Assembly: GCA_030750865.1 (NCBI GenBank)
Contig: JASMHE010000008.1
Span: 620,001 to 684,000 of the forward strand
Length of the DNA stretch: 64,000 nucleotides
Direction of reading: 5' to 3'
DNA from: Alphaproteobacteria bacterium
Lineage (GTDB): Bacteria; Pseudomonadota; Alphaproteobacteria; Micavibrionales; Micavibrionaceae
The notes under the pieces are model-generated. The model searched no databases. It was not told the origin of the DNA and saw only the letters and a program-made list of their open reading frames with translations. This document shows positions 528-6,932 of this stretch, in pieces (position 1 is the first letter of the stretch; every line of letters begins with the position of its first letter). The translations under genes were made by a program, and so were the position numbers.

Positions 528-995
528 CTAGAACGGAATTTCGTCTTCCAGGTCATCAACGGGTGCCGGTGCGGCCTGACTTGCGGCCGGAGCGCCACCA
601 CCATAAGACTGTCCCGCAGGAGCAAAACCACCTGCCCCGCCTTCGGCGCGACTATCAAGCATGTTCAGCTCACCTTTATAAGGGCGCAACACAACTTCGG
701 TCGAATATTTGTCCTGACCGTTCTGGTCCTGCCATTTACGAGTCTCTAACTGGCCTTCAAGATAAACTTTCGAGCCTTTTTTCAAATATTGCTCTGCAAT
801 TTTCACAAGCGGCTGACTGAAAATGACAACACGATGCCATTCCGTACGCTCCTGACGCTCGCCATTACGGTCTTTCCAACGTTCACTTGTTGCGATAGAC
901 AGGTTACACACCTTGTCACCGCTTTGCATTGATCTGACATCCGGATCAGCGCCCAGATTGCCGACTAAAATTACTTTATTAACACTACCAGCCAT
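528..995 (-). CDS. ssb: Single-stranded DNA-binding protein SSB
   Basis: Binds and protects single-stranded DNA during replication, recombination and repair. The 155 residues show the family layout: an N-terminal OB-fold ([21 protein letters not shown], then the conserved TEWHRVV and [13 protein letters not shown] segments, to about residue 112), a Gly/Ala-rich flexible linker, and the acidic tip DDLEDEIPF at 147-155 that docks partner proteins. The start is well set by a GAGGAG ribosome binding site. Alone in its transcript, with a terminator downstream. No GTTC-N7-GTTC SOS box was seen in its upstream region. Confidence 0.97.
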
Positions 996-1305: not shown

Positions 1306-2955
1306 ATGAGCTTAAGAAGTGGTGTAAAGAATCAAAGAACAAAACAAACCGCCAAACTGGTTGATGATATCCAGAAACTCTTCGAGGAAATCAACATTGA
1401 CCAGAAAGACAGTGACGAGCTTCAAGCCGCTGTCCAGCAAGCGCCAAAGGAAATCCGTCAGGGACGCGGTTTCGACAAGATCATCTGGGACGACATGATG
1501 GATGCGTTTTATCGCATCATGGCGACGTATCTGATCAATAGCGATGTTGATGAGACAGACCAAAATCAACTCAAAACATCCTTAAAAGACCTGCCGCACG
1601 AGATTCACTATTATCTTTACCGCAAGGTCAACGAAATTACGGCAGATCAGGATGAAGCCGCCAATAAACGCGCCGCAGACAAGCATCTGTTCCAGCAAGT
1701 CGGTCAGGAAATGACAAACATCAAAGAACACGGCCGTGACCGTCCGGAAGATGATCTGCCCGATTTCTATCAAGTGATCAGAAACAAATTGCATCCCGGC
1801 ACAGTCAGCCTGGTCACCTATCACTGGAAAGAGGTTATTTCAGGCTTTTCCGCCCTGCTTATGCCGGATGAAGGACTGGAATCCTATCTGGATTTCGAAC
1901 TCATCACGAAAAGAATGCGTAACGAACAGCAACTGCGCGGCAATAAAATGCAGCAAGCCGCCCAGCAAGCAGGTGCCGCAAATAGCGGCGCAGGCAAAAA
2001 GAAAAAGAAAGGCGAAAAAGATCCGGCCTATAAAATTCTTGATGTCGAAGAAATCGGCGACTTACAAGAAGAGCTTGACGATCTGGTTGGCCTTGAAAAA
2101 CCGAAAGCATTATTGCCAAAACTGGCGGCCAGCAAGAAATTACAGGCAACTCTTGTCAAAAATTTCGGTGCGGACGACAAAGTTTTTGACGTGTTTAACC
2201 ATTATATCTTCCGTGGCAGCCCGGGCACAGGCAAGACAACCTTCGCCCGCTTGATCGGGAAAATGGAACACGACTCCGGTCGCCTGAAAAAAGGTCACGT
2301 CGTTGAAGTTGACGCCGGTGATCTGATCGCGGGCTATGTCGGACAAACAGCCGAGAAAACCAGCGAAGCCATTCAGGCCGCGCTTGATGGCGTTTTGTTC
2401 ATCGACGAAGCCTATATGCTGAATGACGCCGTCGGCAGCGGCAAAGGGTTCGGCCCACAAGCCATTGCGACATTGGTCAAAGACATGGAACTGTATAAAG
2501 ACCGCCTGACAATCATTTTTGCCGGCTACCCGAAAGACATGGATCTGCTTGTTGATATGAATTCGGGTCTGACACGCCGGACAAAAACGATTGATTTCGA
2601 AGATTATACGCAAGAGCAATTGATGCAAATCTTCGATACAAGACTGGAAAAAGTCGGCCTGAAGATTACCGAAGATGCCAGAAACGCGGTCGCCGACCGC
2701 ATCGAATATTCAAAACGGCGCGACGGTAAAAACTTCGGTAATGCCGGTACGGTCATCAATATTCTGAATATGGTTATTGATCAGCACGCCGTTTCACTGG
2801 ACGGTCTGGGCGTGATCGACCAATTCAATGCGGCGGCCGATTCAGCCTCTGCAGACCTAACGGAAAAATTAACGATGATCACACGTGAAACTGTTGATTC
2901 CGTTGATTTCGCCAACAAAACATCAGACAGAAAACCAACACTGAGCATGTCCTGA
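1306..2955 (+). CDS. CbxX/CfqX-type AAA+ ATPase with a long unknown N-terminal region
   Basis: 549 residues. The C-terminal half is a CbbX/SpoVK-like AAA+ module: Walker A GSPGTGKT at 304-311, Walker B with Asp367-Glu368 (LFIDEAYM), sensor-1 segment FAGY at 405-408, and an arginine-finger candidate at Arg424-Arg425 (GLTRR). Residues 1-240 match nothing I recognise and include a Gln/Ala/Lys-rich linker (about 215-245, with GKKKKKGEK). Relatives include Rubisco activase CbbX and type VII secretion EccA; this length and N-terminus fit neither. A ClpP-like peptidase gene follows 49 bases later without a terminator, so the two probably form one operon. I saw no ClpX/ClpA-type IGF/IGL ClpP-docking tripeptide in an obvious loop. 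Function unknown; remodelling or unfolding of a protein substrate is the likely activity. Confidence 0.85.
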   Translation: MSLRSGVKNQRTKQTAKLVDDIQKLFEEINIDQKDSDELQAAVQQAPKEIRQGRGFDKIIWDDMMDAFYRIMATYLINSDVDETDQNQLKTSLKDLPHEIHYYLYRKVNEITADQDEAANKRAADKHLFQQVGQEMTNIKEHGRDRPEDDLPDFYQVIRNKLHPGTVSLVTYHWKEVISGFSALLMPDEGLESYLDFELITKRMRNEQQLRGNKMQQAAQQAGAANSGAGKKKKKGEKDPAYKILDVEEIGDLQEELDDLVGLEKPKALLPKLAASKKLQATLVKNFGADDKVFDVFNHYIFRGSPGTGKTTFARLIGKMEHDSGRLKKGHVVEVDAGDLIAGYVGQTAEKTSEAIQAALDGVLFIDEAYMLNDAVGSGKGFGPQAIATLVKDMELYKDRLTIIFAGYPKDMDLLVDMNSGLTRRTKTIDFEDYTQEQLMQIFDTRLEKVGLKITEDARNAVADRIEYSKRRDGKNFGNAGTVINILNMVIDQHAVSLDGLGVIDQFNAAADSASADLTEKLTMITRETVDSVDFANKTSDRKPTLSMS

Positions 2956-3004
2956 GCATGCCAAAGCAATATAAGAAAGTTCTACGCAAGAAAGGGAGTT
3001 TATT

Positions 3005-3904
3005 ATGAGTTCAACAGATCCGAGAGATATTCAGGGAAAAGGCAACCTGTCCGGTCAATTCGACCAGCAGTCAAAACAGACGCCGGCACGGGGCGCACCT
3101 TATCATCCGAACGTCACCGAAGAAGACAAGAACGGCCGCGAATATCTGACCGACGTCTTTTCCAAAATGTACCAGAGAAACGCTATTCTGGTACAAGGCG
3201 GCGTTGACGAACATATGGCCACATCCATTGTCGCCCAGATCATGTTGAAAATACATGAAATTGAAGAAGACAATGCGGCCTCTACACCAAAAACAGAAGC
3301 AGAGATCATGGAGATGAGCGAAGCAGACCGCGAAGCCTATGCCGAGCATAGAAAACTTCTCATTCTGATCGACTCGCCCGGCGGATATTGCAGCGAAGGT
3401 CTGCGTATCGTTGATGCCATGATGCAGGCCCGCAACAAGGGCGTTGTTGTTGAAACCGTCGTAAACGGCATTGCGATGTCAATGGGGTCTGTCATTCTGA
3501 CGGCAGGTACACCCGGCTTCCGTAAATGCTGGCCGCATTCCGAAATCATGTTGCACATGGCCAGCGGCGGCGCACAAGGCACGGCGCGCGATGCGACAAT
3601 CAGCATCGATGAATTGAACTTCACCAACGAAAATCTGAAAGCATGGTTCCGTACATCAACAACCATGACCGAAGAGCAACTCGCGCAATGTTTCGACGTT
3701 GACAGCTTCATGCGCGGCGAAGAGGCACTGGATAAAGGCATCATCAACAAAGTCACATATCCGGAAAATCTCGGCACAGATTATCAGGAATACCTGAAAT
3801 ACGAGAACATGCGTCACTGGCACATGAACGAAGAACGCCGCAAAGCCAAGCATGTGAATACACATTGGGCACCAGGCAAATCTATGTTGCTAAAGCCGGA
3901 ATAA
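3005..3904 (+). CDS. ClpP-like serine peptidase (S14 fold)
   Basis: 299 residues with a ClpP/crotonase-fold core: LILIDSPGGYCSEGL, then GIAMSMGSVILTAG and IMLHMASGGAQG. The catalytic triad aligns as Ser159, His184 and Asp233; the gaps of 25 and 49 residues equal those of E. coli ClpP (Ser-His-Asp 111/136/185 in the precursor). A Ser/Gln/Lys-rich ~55-residue N-terminal extension, an acidic insert (about 80-115) and a ~45-residue C-terminal tail make it longer than ordinary ClpP (about 200). A strong AAAGGGAG site precedes the ATG. Co-directional with the AAA+ gene just upstream, suggesting a paired unfoldase and peptidase, though the interaction is inference. It is not the housekeeping clpP, which normally sits with clpX. 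Confidence 0.85.
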   Translation: MSSTDPRDIQGKGNLSGQFDQQSKQTPARGAPYHPNVTEEDKNGREYLTDVFSKMYQRNAILVQGGVDEHMATSIVAQIMLKIHEIEEDNAASTPKTEAEIMEMSEADREAYAEHRKLLILIDSPGGYCSEGLRIVDAMMQARNKGVVVETVVNGIAMSMGSVILTAGTPGFRKCWPHSEIMLHMASGGAQGTARDATISIDELNFTNENLKAWFRTSTTMTEEQLAQCFDVDSFMRGEEALDKGIINKVTYPENLGTDYQEYLKYENMRHWHMNEERRKAKHVNTHWAPGKSMLLKPE

Positions 3905-3943
3905 CAACACCGCGCAACGCGCCGGTACCATGACCACTTATCG

Positions 3944-3973
3944 AAAAAGCCCCGACCATCGGGGCTTTTTTAT
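3944..3973 (+). terminator. Rho-independent terminator after the ClpP-like gene
   Basis: AAAAAGCCCCG and CGGGGCTTTTTT pair around a four-base loop, followed by a T run on the plus strand. It closes the AAA+/ClpP-like unit and separates it from uvrA. Confidence 0.85.
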
Positions 3974-4058: not shown

Positions 4059-6932
4059 ATGTTAAAAGAAATTACAGTTTCCGGCGCACGGGAACACAAC
4101 CTGAAAGACATCACAGTGACCTTGCCGCGCGATTCTCTTGTCGTCGTGACGGGGCTGTCAGGGTCGGGGAAATCGTCCCTCGCCTTTGACACCATCTATG
4201 CCGAAGGGCAGCGCCGCTATGTCGAAAGCCTGTCTGCCTATGCGCGCCAGTTTCTGGAATTGATGCAAAAACCCGACGTTGACCAGATTGACGGCTTATC
4301 GCCCGCAATTTCTATCGAACAGAAAACAACAAGCAAAAATCCGCGCTCTATCGTCGGGACTGTTACCGAAATTTACGATTATATGCGTCTGTTGTGGGCG
4401 CGCATTGGTGTGCCGTATTCCCCCGCCACAGGCAAGCCCATTGAAAGCCAGACAGTCAGCCAGATGGTTGACCGCATCAAGGATATGGGCGACGGCACAC
4501 GTCTTTACCTGCTGGCGCCAATCGTACGCGGCCGCAAAGGCGAGTATAAAAAGGAAATTATCGAGCTGCGTAAAAAAGGGTTCCAGCGGATCAAAATTGA
4601 CGGCACGCTGTATGAAATCGAAGACACGCCCGCGCTCGATAAAAAACTAAAACATGATATCGAGGTCGTCGTGGACCGTCTTGTCATCCGCGATGATATG
4701 GGCAACCGCTTAGCAGATTCCGTAGAAACGGCACTGCGCCTAACCGACGGCCTGATGATTGCCGAAAACGCCGACACGGGCGAACACACGCTGTTTTCCG
4801 AAAAATTTGCTTGCCCTGTCTCCGGCTTTACAATCCCGGAAATCGAACCGCGCTTATTTTCGTTTAACAGCCCGCACGGCGCGTGCCCGTCTTGTGACGG
4901 TCTGGCCGTAAAATTGTCTTTTGACGAAAATCTGATTATCCCCGATAAAACAAAACCGGTTTGTGATGGCGCGATCGAACCCTGGTCAAAGAGCTTTGCC
5001 ACATACTATCTGCAAGCGCTGGAACAAGTCCTGCACCATTACAAGATGAGCGCAAAGACACCCTTTGAAGACTTGCCCGAAAAAATACAAAACATCGTTC
5101 TGTATGGGTCCGGCACAGAAAAGATTGCCATCACCTATGAATCCAAAAACAATACATACCGCAGTCACAAACCGTTTGAAGGGGTAATCCCTAATCTGGA
5201 ACGCCGCTTGCTTGAGACCGAGAGCAACCATGTCCGCGAAGAGCTGGAACAATATCAATCCAGCCACCCGTGCGAGGCCTGTAACGGCCACCGCCTGAAA
5301 CCCGAAGCACTGGCCGTCAAAATTGCGGACCACCATATCGGCGAGGTCACGCAAATGAGCATCGAAGAAGCCGACCTGTGGTTCAAGGCGCTGCCGGACA
5401 AGCTGACAAAACAGCAACTGGAAATCGGTTCCCGCGTTTTAAAAGAGATCACAGAACGTCTGACATTCCTGATGAATGTCGGCCTTGATTACCTGTCTTT
5501 ATCGCGTAGCGCGGGGACATTATCAGGCGGGGAAAGTCAGCGTATTCGCCTCGCCAGTCAGATCGGATCGGGCTTAACAGGTGTATTATACGTACTGGAC
5601 GAACCCTCCATCGGTTTACATCAGCGCGATAATAACCGCCTGCTGACCACATTGAAGCGCCTGCGCGATCTGGGCAACACCGTCATTGTGGTCGAACATG
5701 ACGAAGACGCTATCCGCGAAGCCGATCATGTCATTGATATGGGACCGGGCGCGGGCATTCACGGCGGTGCCGTTGTCGCCGAAGGCACGCCGCAGGACAT
5801 CATTAAAAACAAAGACAGCCTGACCGGCCAATATCTAAGCGGCACAAAAGAAATTCCCGTCCCGCAGGAACGCCGCAAAGCCAAAAAAGCAGGCAAGAAC
5901 GGGCAGCAATTTATCGAAGTTGTCGGCGCGACAGGGCATAATTTGAAAAATATCTCTGCAAAAATTCCGCTCGGCACGATGACATGCGTGACGGGCGTGT
6001 CCGGATCGGGGAAATCGACATTCACCATCGAGACGCTTTACAAAACCGCCAGCCAGCGCGTGATGAAGTCCAAAGAAGTGCCCCTGCCCTGCAAAGACAT
6101 TCAGGGGCTGGAATTCATTGATAAAATCATTGATATCGACCAAGCGCCGATCGGCCGCACACCGCGATCCAATCCGGCCACTTATACGGGCGCATTCACC
6201 CCCATTCGTGACTGGTTTGCCGGACTTCCGGAAGCAAAAGCGCGCGGTTATAATGCAGGCCGTTTTTCATTCAACGTCAAGGGCGGGCGCTGCGAAACCT
6301 GCCGCGGTGATGGTGTCATCAAAATCGAAATGCACTTCTTGCCTGATGTGTATGTCACCTGTGAAAGTTGTGACGGCAAGCGCTATAACCGTGAGACGCT
6401 CGAAATTAAATTTAAAGATAAAAATATCGCCGACGTACTGGATATGTCGATCGAAGAAGCCGCCGATTTCTTCAAAGCTGTGCCTTCCATTCGTGACAAG
6501 CTGGAAACACTCAAAGATGTCGGCCTGTCTTATATCAAGGTCGGACAACAAGCCACAACGCTATCCGGCGGCGAAGCGCAGCGGGTCAAACTCGCCAAAG
6601 AGCTTTCCAAGCGCTCGACAGGCAAAACCCTTTATATTCTGGATGAACCGACCACAGGCCTGCATTTCGATGATGTGCGGCAATTGCTGGACGTTTTGCA
6701 CCGTCTGGTCGAACAAGGGAACAGCATCGTCATCATCGAACACAATCTTGATGTTATCAAAACCGCAGACTGGATTATCGATATCGGTCCAGAGGGCGGC
6801 GATAAAGGCGGCGATGTGATCGCAACCGGTACGCCCGAAGATATTTGTCAGGTGAAAGACAGCTATACAGGTCGTTTCCTCGCCCCGCTTTTGCAACCAC
6901 AAAGCGGAAAAGCCAAGAAAACGGGCAGCTAA
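4059..6932 (+). CDS. uvrA: Excinuclease ABC subunit A
   Basis: Damage-recognition ATPase of nucleotide excision repair, acting as a dimer that loads UvrB at lesions. 957 residues, close to the family norm of about 940. The first ABC module opens with Walker [10 protein letters not shown] at 32-40; CPSC and CEAC/CETC/CESC pairs supply the zinc sites; the ABC signatures LSGGESQRI and LSGGEAQRV each precede a Walker B (VLDEPS, ILDEPT); the second Walker A reads GVSGSGKST. The C-terminal GKAKKTGS tail is typical. No clear ribosome binding site precedes the ATG, but homology starts at residue 1. No GTTC-N7-GTTC SOS box was found upstream. Confidence 0.98.

Follow-up and report, generated by a model that had tools for sequence, protein, structure and literature searches.

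A CbxX-type AAA+ gene and a ClpP-type peptidase gene form one unit

The locus described here raises the question of whether a CbxX-type AAA+ protein and the ClpP-like peptidase encoded directly behind it work together as an ATP-dependent protease. AAA+ proteases are normally fixed motor-peptidase pairs in which N-domains are the variable part. The pair lies in the window, the whole 64,000-nucleotide stretch of DNA that was analysed, which belongs to the genome (G000; 2.19 Mb in 14 contigs, 99.75% complete) of a Micavibrio-like alphaproteobacterium. As described in an earlier note on this DNA, the two open reading frames (1306-2955 and 3005-3904) are adjacent on the forward strand; they are separated by a 49-base gap (2956-3004) with a GGAG ribosome-binding-like site at 2994-2997, and a single strong, intrinsic-terminator-like hairpin of 13 pairs (3943-3971, forward strand) closes the two-gene unit. 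The divergent gene upstream is ssb (528-995, reverse strand), which marks the locus in relatives, and the gene downstream is uvrA (4059-6932, forward strand); both are conserved neighbours in the relatives' loci.

The first gene encodes an AAA+ protein of 549 amino acids, here termed ND-CbxX for its lineage-specific N-domain (ND). From residue ~253 onwards it is of the CbxX/SpoVK/CbbX type, matching PF00004 (8e-14), AAA_lid_6 (3e-7) and the NCBIfam models for SpoVK (2e-61) and CbbX (6e-43), and the nearest PDB chains are CbbX, the best match, and EccA1. The CbbX/SpoVK likeness proposed earlier is thereby confirmed, with scores (207, 153 and 147) that all stay below the respective equivalog cut-offs (423, 467 and 459) within the CbbX/SpoVK/EccA group. 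Alignments place the AAA+ core at 2062-2805, with Walker A at 2215-2238, the pore loop Y344-V-G at 2335-2343, Walker B at 2392-2415 and the Arg fingers at R424/R425, so that Walker A and B, an aromatic pore loop, an Arg finger and the CbxX lid are all present. Unlike CbxX-type comparators, which retain the sensor-2 Arg, the window subfamily has lost it: Gly481 stands at the expected position, and the FGN[AG]R pattern fails, reading FGNAG both in alignment A2 (four rows of four) and in alignment A3 (the three window-subfamily rows). The stretch between sensor-1 and the Arg finger is short and contains no IGF-type docking tripeptide. The C-terminal tail was considered as a docking element on account of VGF in G048 and LKFG in G107 and G110; it is not conserved in the window, and these matches were judged to be due to chance.

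In a comparison set of 142 genomes of the order, which includes the window's own genome, relatives of near full length were found only in G110, G107 and G048, and the four motors form a clade with 100/100 support. A 560-residue CbxX-type AAA+ protein from another family of the order (L010, G121) has an N-terminus that the N-domain profile does not match. Searches of genome and viral contigs with single window proteins returned no relatives, because the patterns used lay in non-conserved stretches. Profile searches were more successful. A role in defence was also considered and set aside, since PADLOC gave just weak matches for the AAA+ protein (IetA, TRIP13) and none for the peptidase.

The peptidase is an accessory ClpP with an intact triad and an altered docking face

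The second gene (3005-3904, forward strand) encodes a serine peptidase of 299 amino acids, here termed ClpP2. It matches PF00574 at 1.7e-37, its AlphaFold2 model (pTM 0.71) has the ClpP fold, and its top Foldseek hits are ClpP without exception, with the P. aeruginosa ClpP1/ClpP2 heterocomplex bound to ClpX among the nearest. The catalytic triad (3479-3703) consists of S159 (3479-3481), H184 (3554-3556) and D233 (3701-3703), with spacings of 25 and 49 identical to those of E. coli S97/H122/D171; with this fold and this Ser-His-Asp triad ClpP2 falls among the S14 peptidases, at a ClpP equivalog score of 106 against a cut-off of 309. The claims of a ClpP-like peptidase with E. coli spacing, an acidic insert and extensions at both termini all held up in the alignment. 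The insert (3254-3346), acidic and helical, lies on the apical side between E. coli positions 50 and 60, where ClpP2 has 37 residues versus 10 in E. coli. The earlier note had also stated that a housekeeping ClpP/ClpX pair with the same role, combined with a dead active site in this peptidase, would tell against the pair: the genome does encode a housekeeping ClpP with an intact pocket elsewhere (G000:C8:393457), and the triad of ClpP2 is intact. A phage origin was considered in view of a resemblance to phage head proteases (PHROG 94, 1e-27; a score of 70 with the NCBIfam head-protease model, whose cut-off is 120) and was rejected: the likeness does not extend beyond the ClpP core, and the unit is flanked by the housekeeping genes ssb and uvrA.

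The hydrophobic pocket that receives IGF/IGL loops is not preserved in the window ClpP2, where N154, K174 and T251 (3755-3757) are polar replacements at E. coli positions 92, 112 and 189. Over 13 pocket positions, the ClpP1 proteins and the ClpP2 proteins of G024, G035 and G048 that are encoded in ClpA clusters are largely hydrophobic; several of these positions are occupied by Lys, His, Asn, Thr or Gln in the ClpP2 proteins of the window, G107 and G110, which also have an apical loop 16-27 residues longer. Loss of the pocket is also seen in the ClpP2 proteins of G045 and G046, genomes with ND-Clp motors. Neither half of the canonical IGF/pocket handshake is thus present, the AAA+ protein being devoid of an IGF loop and ClpP2 having a degenerate pocket. 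A comparable loss, confined to one side, is known from ClpP1 of M. smegmatis (PMC6889138). In addition, V232 replaces the Arg that precedes the catalytic Asp, so that assembly of ClpP2 into a homo-tetradecamer is uncertain.

Conservation of the pair across the order

The earlier note had suggested genome neighbourhoods as a check on the pair, and these give a divided answer. The order ssb-AAA-ClpP2-uvrA recurs on the same strand in G107, which belongs to a second genus, at 36-40% identity. In the other two genomes the genes are unlinked: in G048 the AAA+ gene lies between ssb and uvrA and ClpP2 is clustered with ClpA1, ClpA2 and Aat, and in G110 the AAA+ gene adjoins ssb and ClpP2 lies beside ClpA and ClpS. 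ClpA clusters containing ClpP2 also occur in G024, G025, G035, G045 and G046, a recurrence which suggests that the cluster was the earlier location of ClpP2. In G108, a genus mate of G107 and G110, ssb and uvrA are adjacent and enclose nothing homologous. Outside its own genome, the window ClpP2 has its best matches in G110, G107 and G048, which are precisely the remaining ND-CbxX genomes, and trees of ClpP paralogues unite the proteins of the window, G107 and G110 in one clade (support 98/100 and 100/99). AU tests on whether the G000 and G107 proteins are sisters gave p = 0.39 and 0.31, a result that does not distinguish between orders of relocation.

Several other features of these clusters were recorded. 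In the window's own genome ClpA1 and ClpA2 lie on contig 6 and retain MGF/IGF loops; ClpA2 (L080:8450-10999) is a divergent second ClpA of 849 amino acids directly after ClpA1; it has an IGF loop, and the Pfam matches listed for it do not include Clp_N. In the ClpA cluster of G110, ClpP2 has as a neighbour a gene that Pfam reads as a fusion of a response-regulator receiver and a cytidine/deoxycytidylate deaminase (L073:8595-9488), with similar genes at L273 10383-11264 and L077 8489-9391. Between the ClpP2 and ClpA genes a single-helix protein of pseudopilin-like appearance is conserved ('ESGS..FYILIAIALFAALSFA...VLIAR'; L073:10563-11309, L269:4715-5419, L271:6246-6962 and L273:8767-9477), the G110 copy of which has no Pfam match. 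The Micavibrio-like genomes G095, G036 and G076 contain five or six CLP_protease matches each, some with possible N-terminal leader segments.

One N-domain is found on four types of motor

The ND covers residues 1 to ~235 (1306-2010, forward strand). As noted earlier, the first ~240 residues of the AAA+ protein are unrecognised, in that no family model scores above its curated cut-off there. A profile (A5) that covers the N-terminal ~225 residues of all four ND-CbxX proteins has no sequence match in the PDB; the AlphaFold2 model of the domain is all-helical at ~50 pLDDT, a confidence at which a fold search is not meaningful. Searching with the CbxX motor alone had suggested a family confined to four genomes, a view that was abandoned when the ND profile matched 16 of the 142 genomes (E-values from 1e-103 to 1e-6), bringing in other motors. 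Four of these genomes encode ND-CbxX (G000, G107, G110, G048). Three encode ND-Lon (G109, G054, G024), with a Lon_C protease domain and its GPSAG serine. Another eight encode ND joined to a ClpA-like tandem AAA motor (G035, G049, G045, G046, G096-G098 and a partial gene in G025), with two copies each in G045 and G046; almost every ND-Clp protein of sufficient length has an [ILV]GF docking-type loop at the position where one would be expected. In G045 (L450:6586-12326) and G046 (L451:7758-12988) two tandem ND-Clp fusions stand between ssb and uvrA, their NDs only ~25% identical. The single ND-FtsH gene (G042) is cut by a contig end before any M41 domain, and its N-terminus shows no strongly hydrophobic segment.

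The locus is shared as well as the domain. ND genes adjoin ssb in G000, G107, G110, G048, G109, G042, G035, G049, G054, G024, G046 and G025, and lie between a few hundred bases and two genes from it in G096-G098; across the 16 genomes uvrA often comes next. The window protein, with an N-domain homologous to A5 and ssb adjacent, belongs to this ND-defined family. After the ND, the motor starts at a comparable point in all types (residues ~185-254), namely at ~185 in the ClpA-like proteins, 210 in Lon, 211 in FtsH and ~254 in CbxX. Lon model positions 252-795 align from residue 210 and FtsH positions 147-382 from residue 211. The NCBIfam models begin past the motors' own N-terminal parts (at ~250 for Lon, 147 for FtsH and ~125-133 for ClpA), which indicates that the ND replaces the N-terminal part of each.

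The histories of domain and motor disagree. Although the CbxX motors form one clade, their NDs reject a single clade (AU p = 0.0008), and the AU test gave p = 0.013 for the Lon NDs as a single clade. The ND of the window protein groups with that of its genus mate G042, which is on FtsH (98/93), and the ND of G109, on Lon, groups with those of its genus mates G107 and G110, on CbxX (86/82); ND identity is 46% between G110 and G109 and 39% between G110 and G107. The ND tree is limited by long branches and about 225 columns, and the genus pairs and the locus agree with it. Since the ND and the locus are constant and the motors differ, it would be the motor, and the source of the peptidase with it, that has been exchanged. 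The simplest reading of these sequence comparisons is that the motor was replaced in place, with ND and locus kept and with swaps within genera. Chimeric assembly is unlikely to account for this, because each of the four ND-CbxX genes stems from an assembly of its own, and the genomes G045, G046 and G054 consist of one contig each.

Motors without a peptidase domain co-occur with an extra ClpP

Every genome with a peptidase-less ND motor, four CbxX and eight Clp-like, has an extra ClpP (12/12), versus 9 of the 88 genomes of the family without ND (Fisher p about 3e-10, a value that overstates the evidence, since the 12 genomes fall in 6 genera and are not independent). Apart from the truncated ND-FtsH, ND motors come either with the peptidase in the same chain, as in the three ND-Lon proteins, or with an extra ClpP, and peptidase-less ND and extra ClpP occur together in genera g1, g38 and g21. 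In G098 a ClpP paralogue is present instead of the housekeeping ClpP. No extra ClpP was found in G109 (ND-Lon) or in G042 (ND-FtsH; 87% complete); G024 and G054, also ND-Lon, do have one. Incomplete metagenome-assembled genomes can hide genes in such presence/absence counts.

Which partner for ClpP2?

We put at about 60% the probability that the pair represents, in its CbxX-motor form, a lineage-specific, ND-defined and ssb-adjacent ATP-dependent protease with ClpP2 as its peptidase. The ND would select the substrate; a CbxX-type hexamer would unfold and thread it through Tyr-Val-Gly pore loops, whose motifs are present and whose action is presumed; and ClpP2, from the same two-gene unit, would form the proteolytic barrel, for which fold and triad are observed and assembly and docking are presumed, degrading the substrate alone or with ClpP1. 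In relatives, the same domain would serve a Lon motor with the protease in the chain, a ClpA-like motor with an IGF-type loop and a separate ClpP, or an FtsH-like motor. The earlier proposal of an unfoldase-peptidase is thus supported in part. Strong indirect backing comes from the presence of the ND on Lon, FtsH and IGF-bearing ClpA-type motors at ssb and from the extra ClpP in every genome with a peptidase-less motor; against it stand the unlinked genes of G110 and G048, the lack of an IGF-type loop, the polar pocket of ClpP2 and the extra ClpP in two of the three ND-Lon genomes. At somewhat less than even odds, a CbxX-type ring would act as unfoldase to a ClpP-type barrel by way of a non-IGF interface, within an ND family whose complete motor has been repeatedly replaced.

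The main rival is a partnership of ClpP2 with ClpP1 and ClpA. ClpP2 would then be an accessory of the ordinary Clp system, forming mixed barrels in which ClpA1, ClpA2 or ClpX docks on the ClpP1 face, with ND-CbxX a separate remodeller that the operon merely co-regulates. The conserved clustering of ClpP2 with ClpA1/ClpA2 in seven genomes (G024, G025, G035, G045, G046, G048, G110), in several of which ClpS was called, speaks for it, as do the docking loops retained by the genome's own ClpA proteins, the P. aeruginosa heterocomplex among the nearest folds and the precedent of M. smegmatis ClpP1P2, in which one ring has a degenerate pocket and a C-terminal extension (PMC6889138). Yet ClpA2 occurs without an extra ClpP in G042, G109 and G047 (absences that are weaker for G042 and G047, 87% and 81% complete), whereas an extra ClpP accompanies the peptidase-less ND motors in all 12 genomes, and in two genera ClpP2 has left the ClpA cluster to adjoin the ND-CbxX gene. 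We consider this rival unlikely, at roughly one chance in four, and ClpA2 as the sole partner of ClpP2 was rejected as the main explanation on the same occurrences of ClpA2.

Less probable still is action in series, in which ND-CbxX would be a non-proteolytic remodeller and ClpP2 would receive the unfolded or disassembled substrate from it with no docking of the two. Rings of the CbbX type are known for chaperone-like remodelling, in the case of CbbX of Rubisco, rather than as protease motors (PMC5385338), and the missing docking loop and degenerate pocket would suit such an arrangement; the fusion of the ND to Lon with its protease domain, to FtsH-type and to IGF-bearing ClpA-like motors at the same locus points instead to coupled proteolysis. 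That ordinary gene shuffling inserted ClpP2 behind the AAA+ gene with no functional link can be very nearly dismissed. Linkage in only two of the four ND-CbxX genomes and the abundance and mobility of ClpP paralogues in this family would be expected of chance neighbours, but order and strand are the same in G000 and G107 at the divergence noted above, and co-occurrence is complete, both for CbxX (4/4) and for all peptidase-less ND motors.

Relation to known systems

If the pair is an ND-defined protease, the usual arrangement is reversed, with the ND and its genomic place as the constant elements and a motor-peptidase part of four types as the variable one, down to the level of single genera. 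Such a locus is a natural experiment that asks which properties a substrate-recognition domain requires of its motor. It also predicts a ClpP partner without an IGF loop in the form of a CbxX ring, and it makes function testable for one branch of the CbxX family, which is large and for the most part uncharacterised. AAA+ proteases as such are familiar, as are N-domain adaptors and paralogues of ClpP; the exchange of one ND among four known motor types (CbxX, Clp, Lon, FtsH) at a single locus is probably without earlier report, as the open-access papers searched describe neither this nor a CbxX-type ring with ClpP.

The window AAA+ protein shares its core, Tyr-Val-Gly pore loop and AAA_lid_6 with CbbX, SpoVK and EccA, and differs from them in its sub-cut-off scores, its own N-domain, the change of sensor-2 Arg to Gly and its separate four-member clade. 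ClpP2 has the fold, intact triad and triad spacing of the S14 peptidases of ClpAP and ClpXP, whereas its degenerate docking pocket, acidic insert and long tails set it apart; it resembles phage head maturation proteases in the ClpP core, but has ssb and uvrA rather than phage head genes as neighbours. Compared with LonA, whose own N-domain the ND replaces in the three ND-Lon proteins, the window protein has a CbxX-type motor and its peptidase on a second chain. Mycobacterial ClpP1P2 likewise combines two unlike ClpPs, one with an altered pocket and a C-terminal extension (PMC6889138); there ClpX and ClpC1 dock on the ClpP2 ring, whereas in the window it is a CbxX-type AAA gene that accompanies the gene of the second ClpP.
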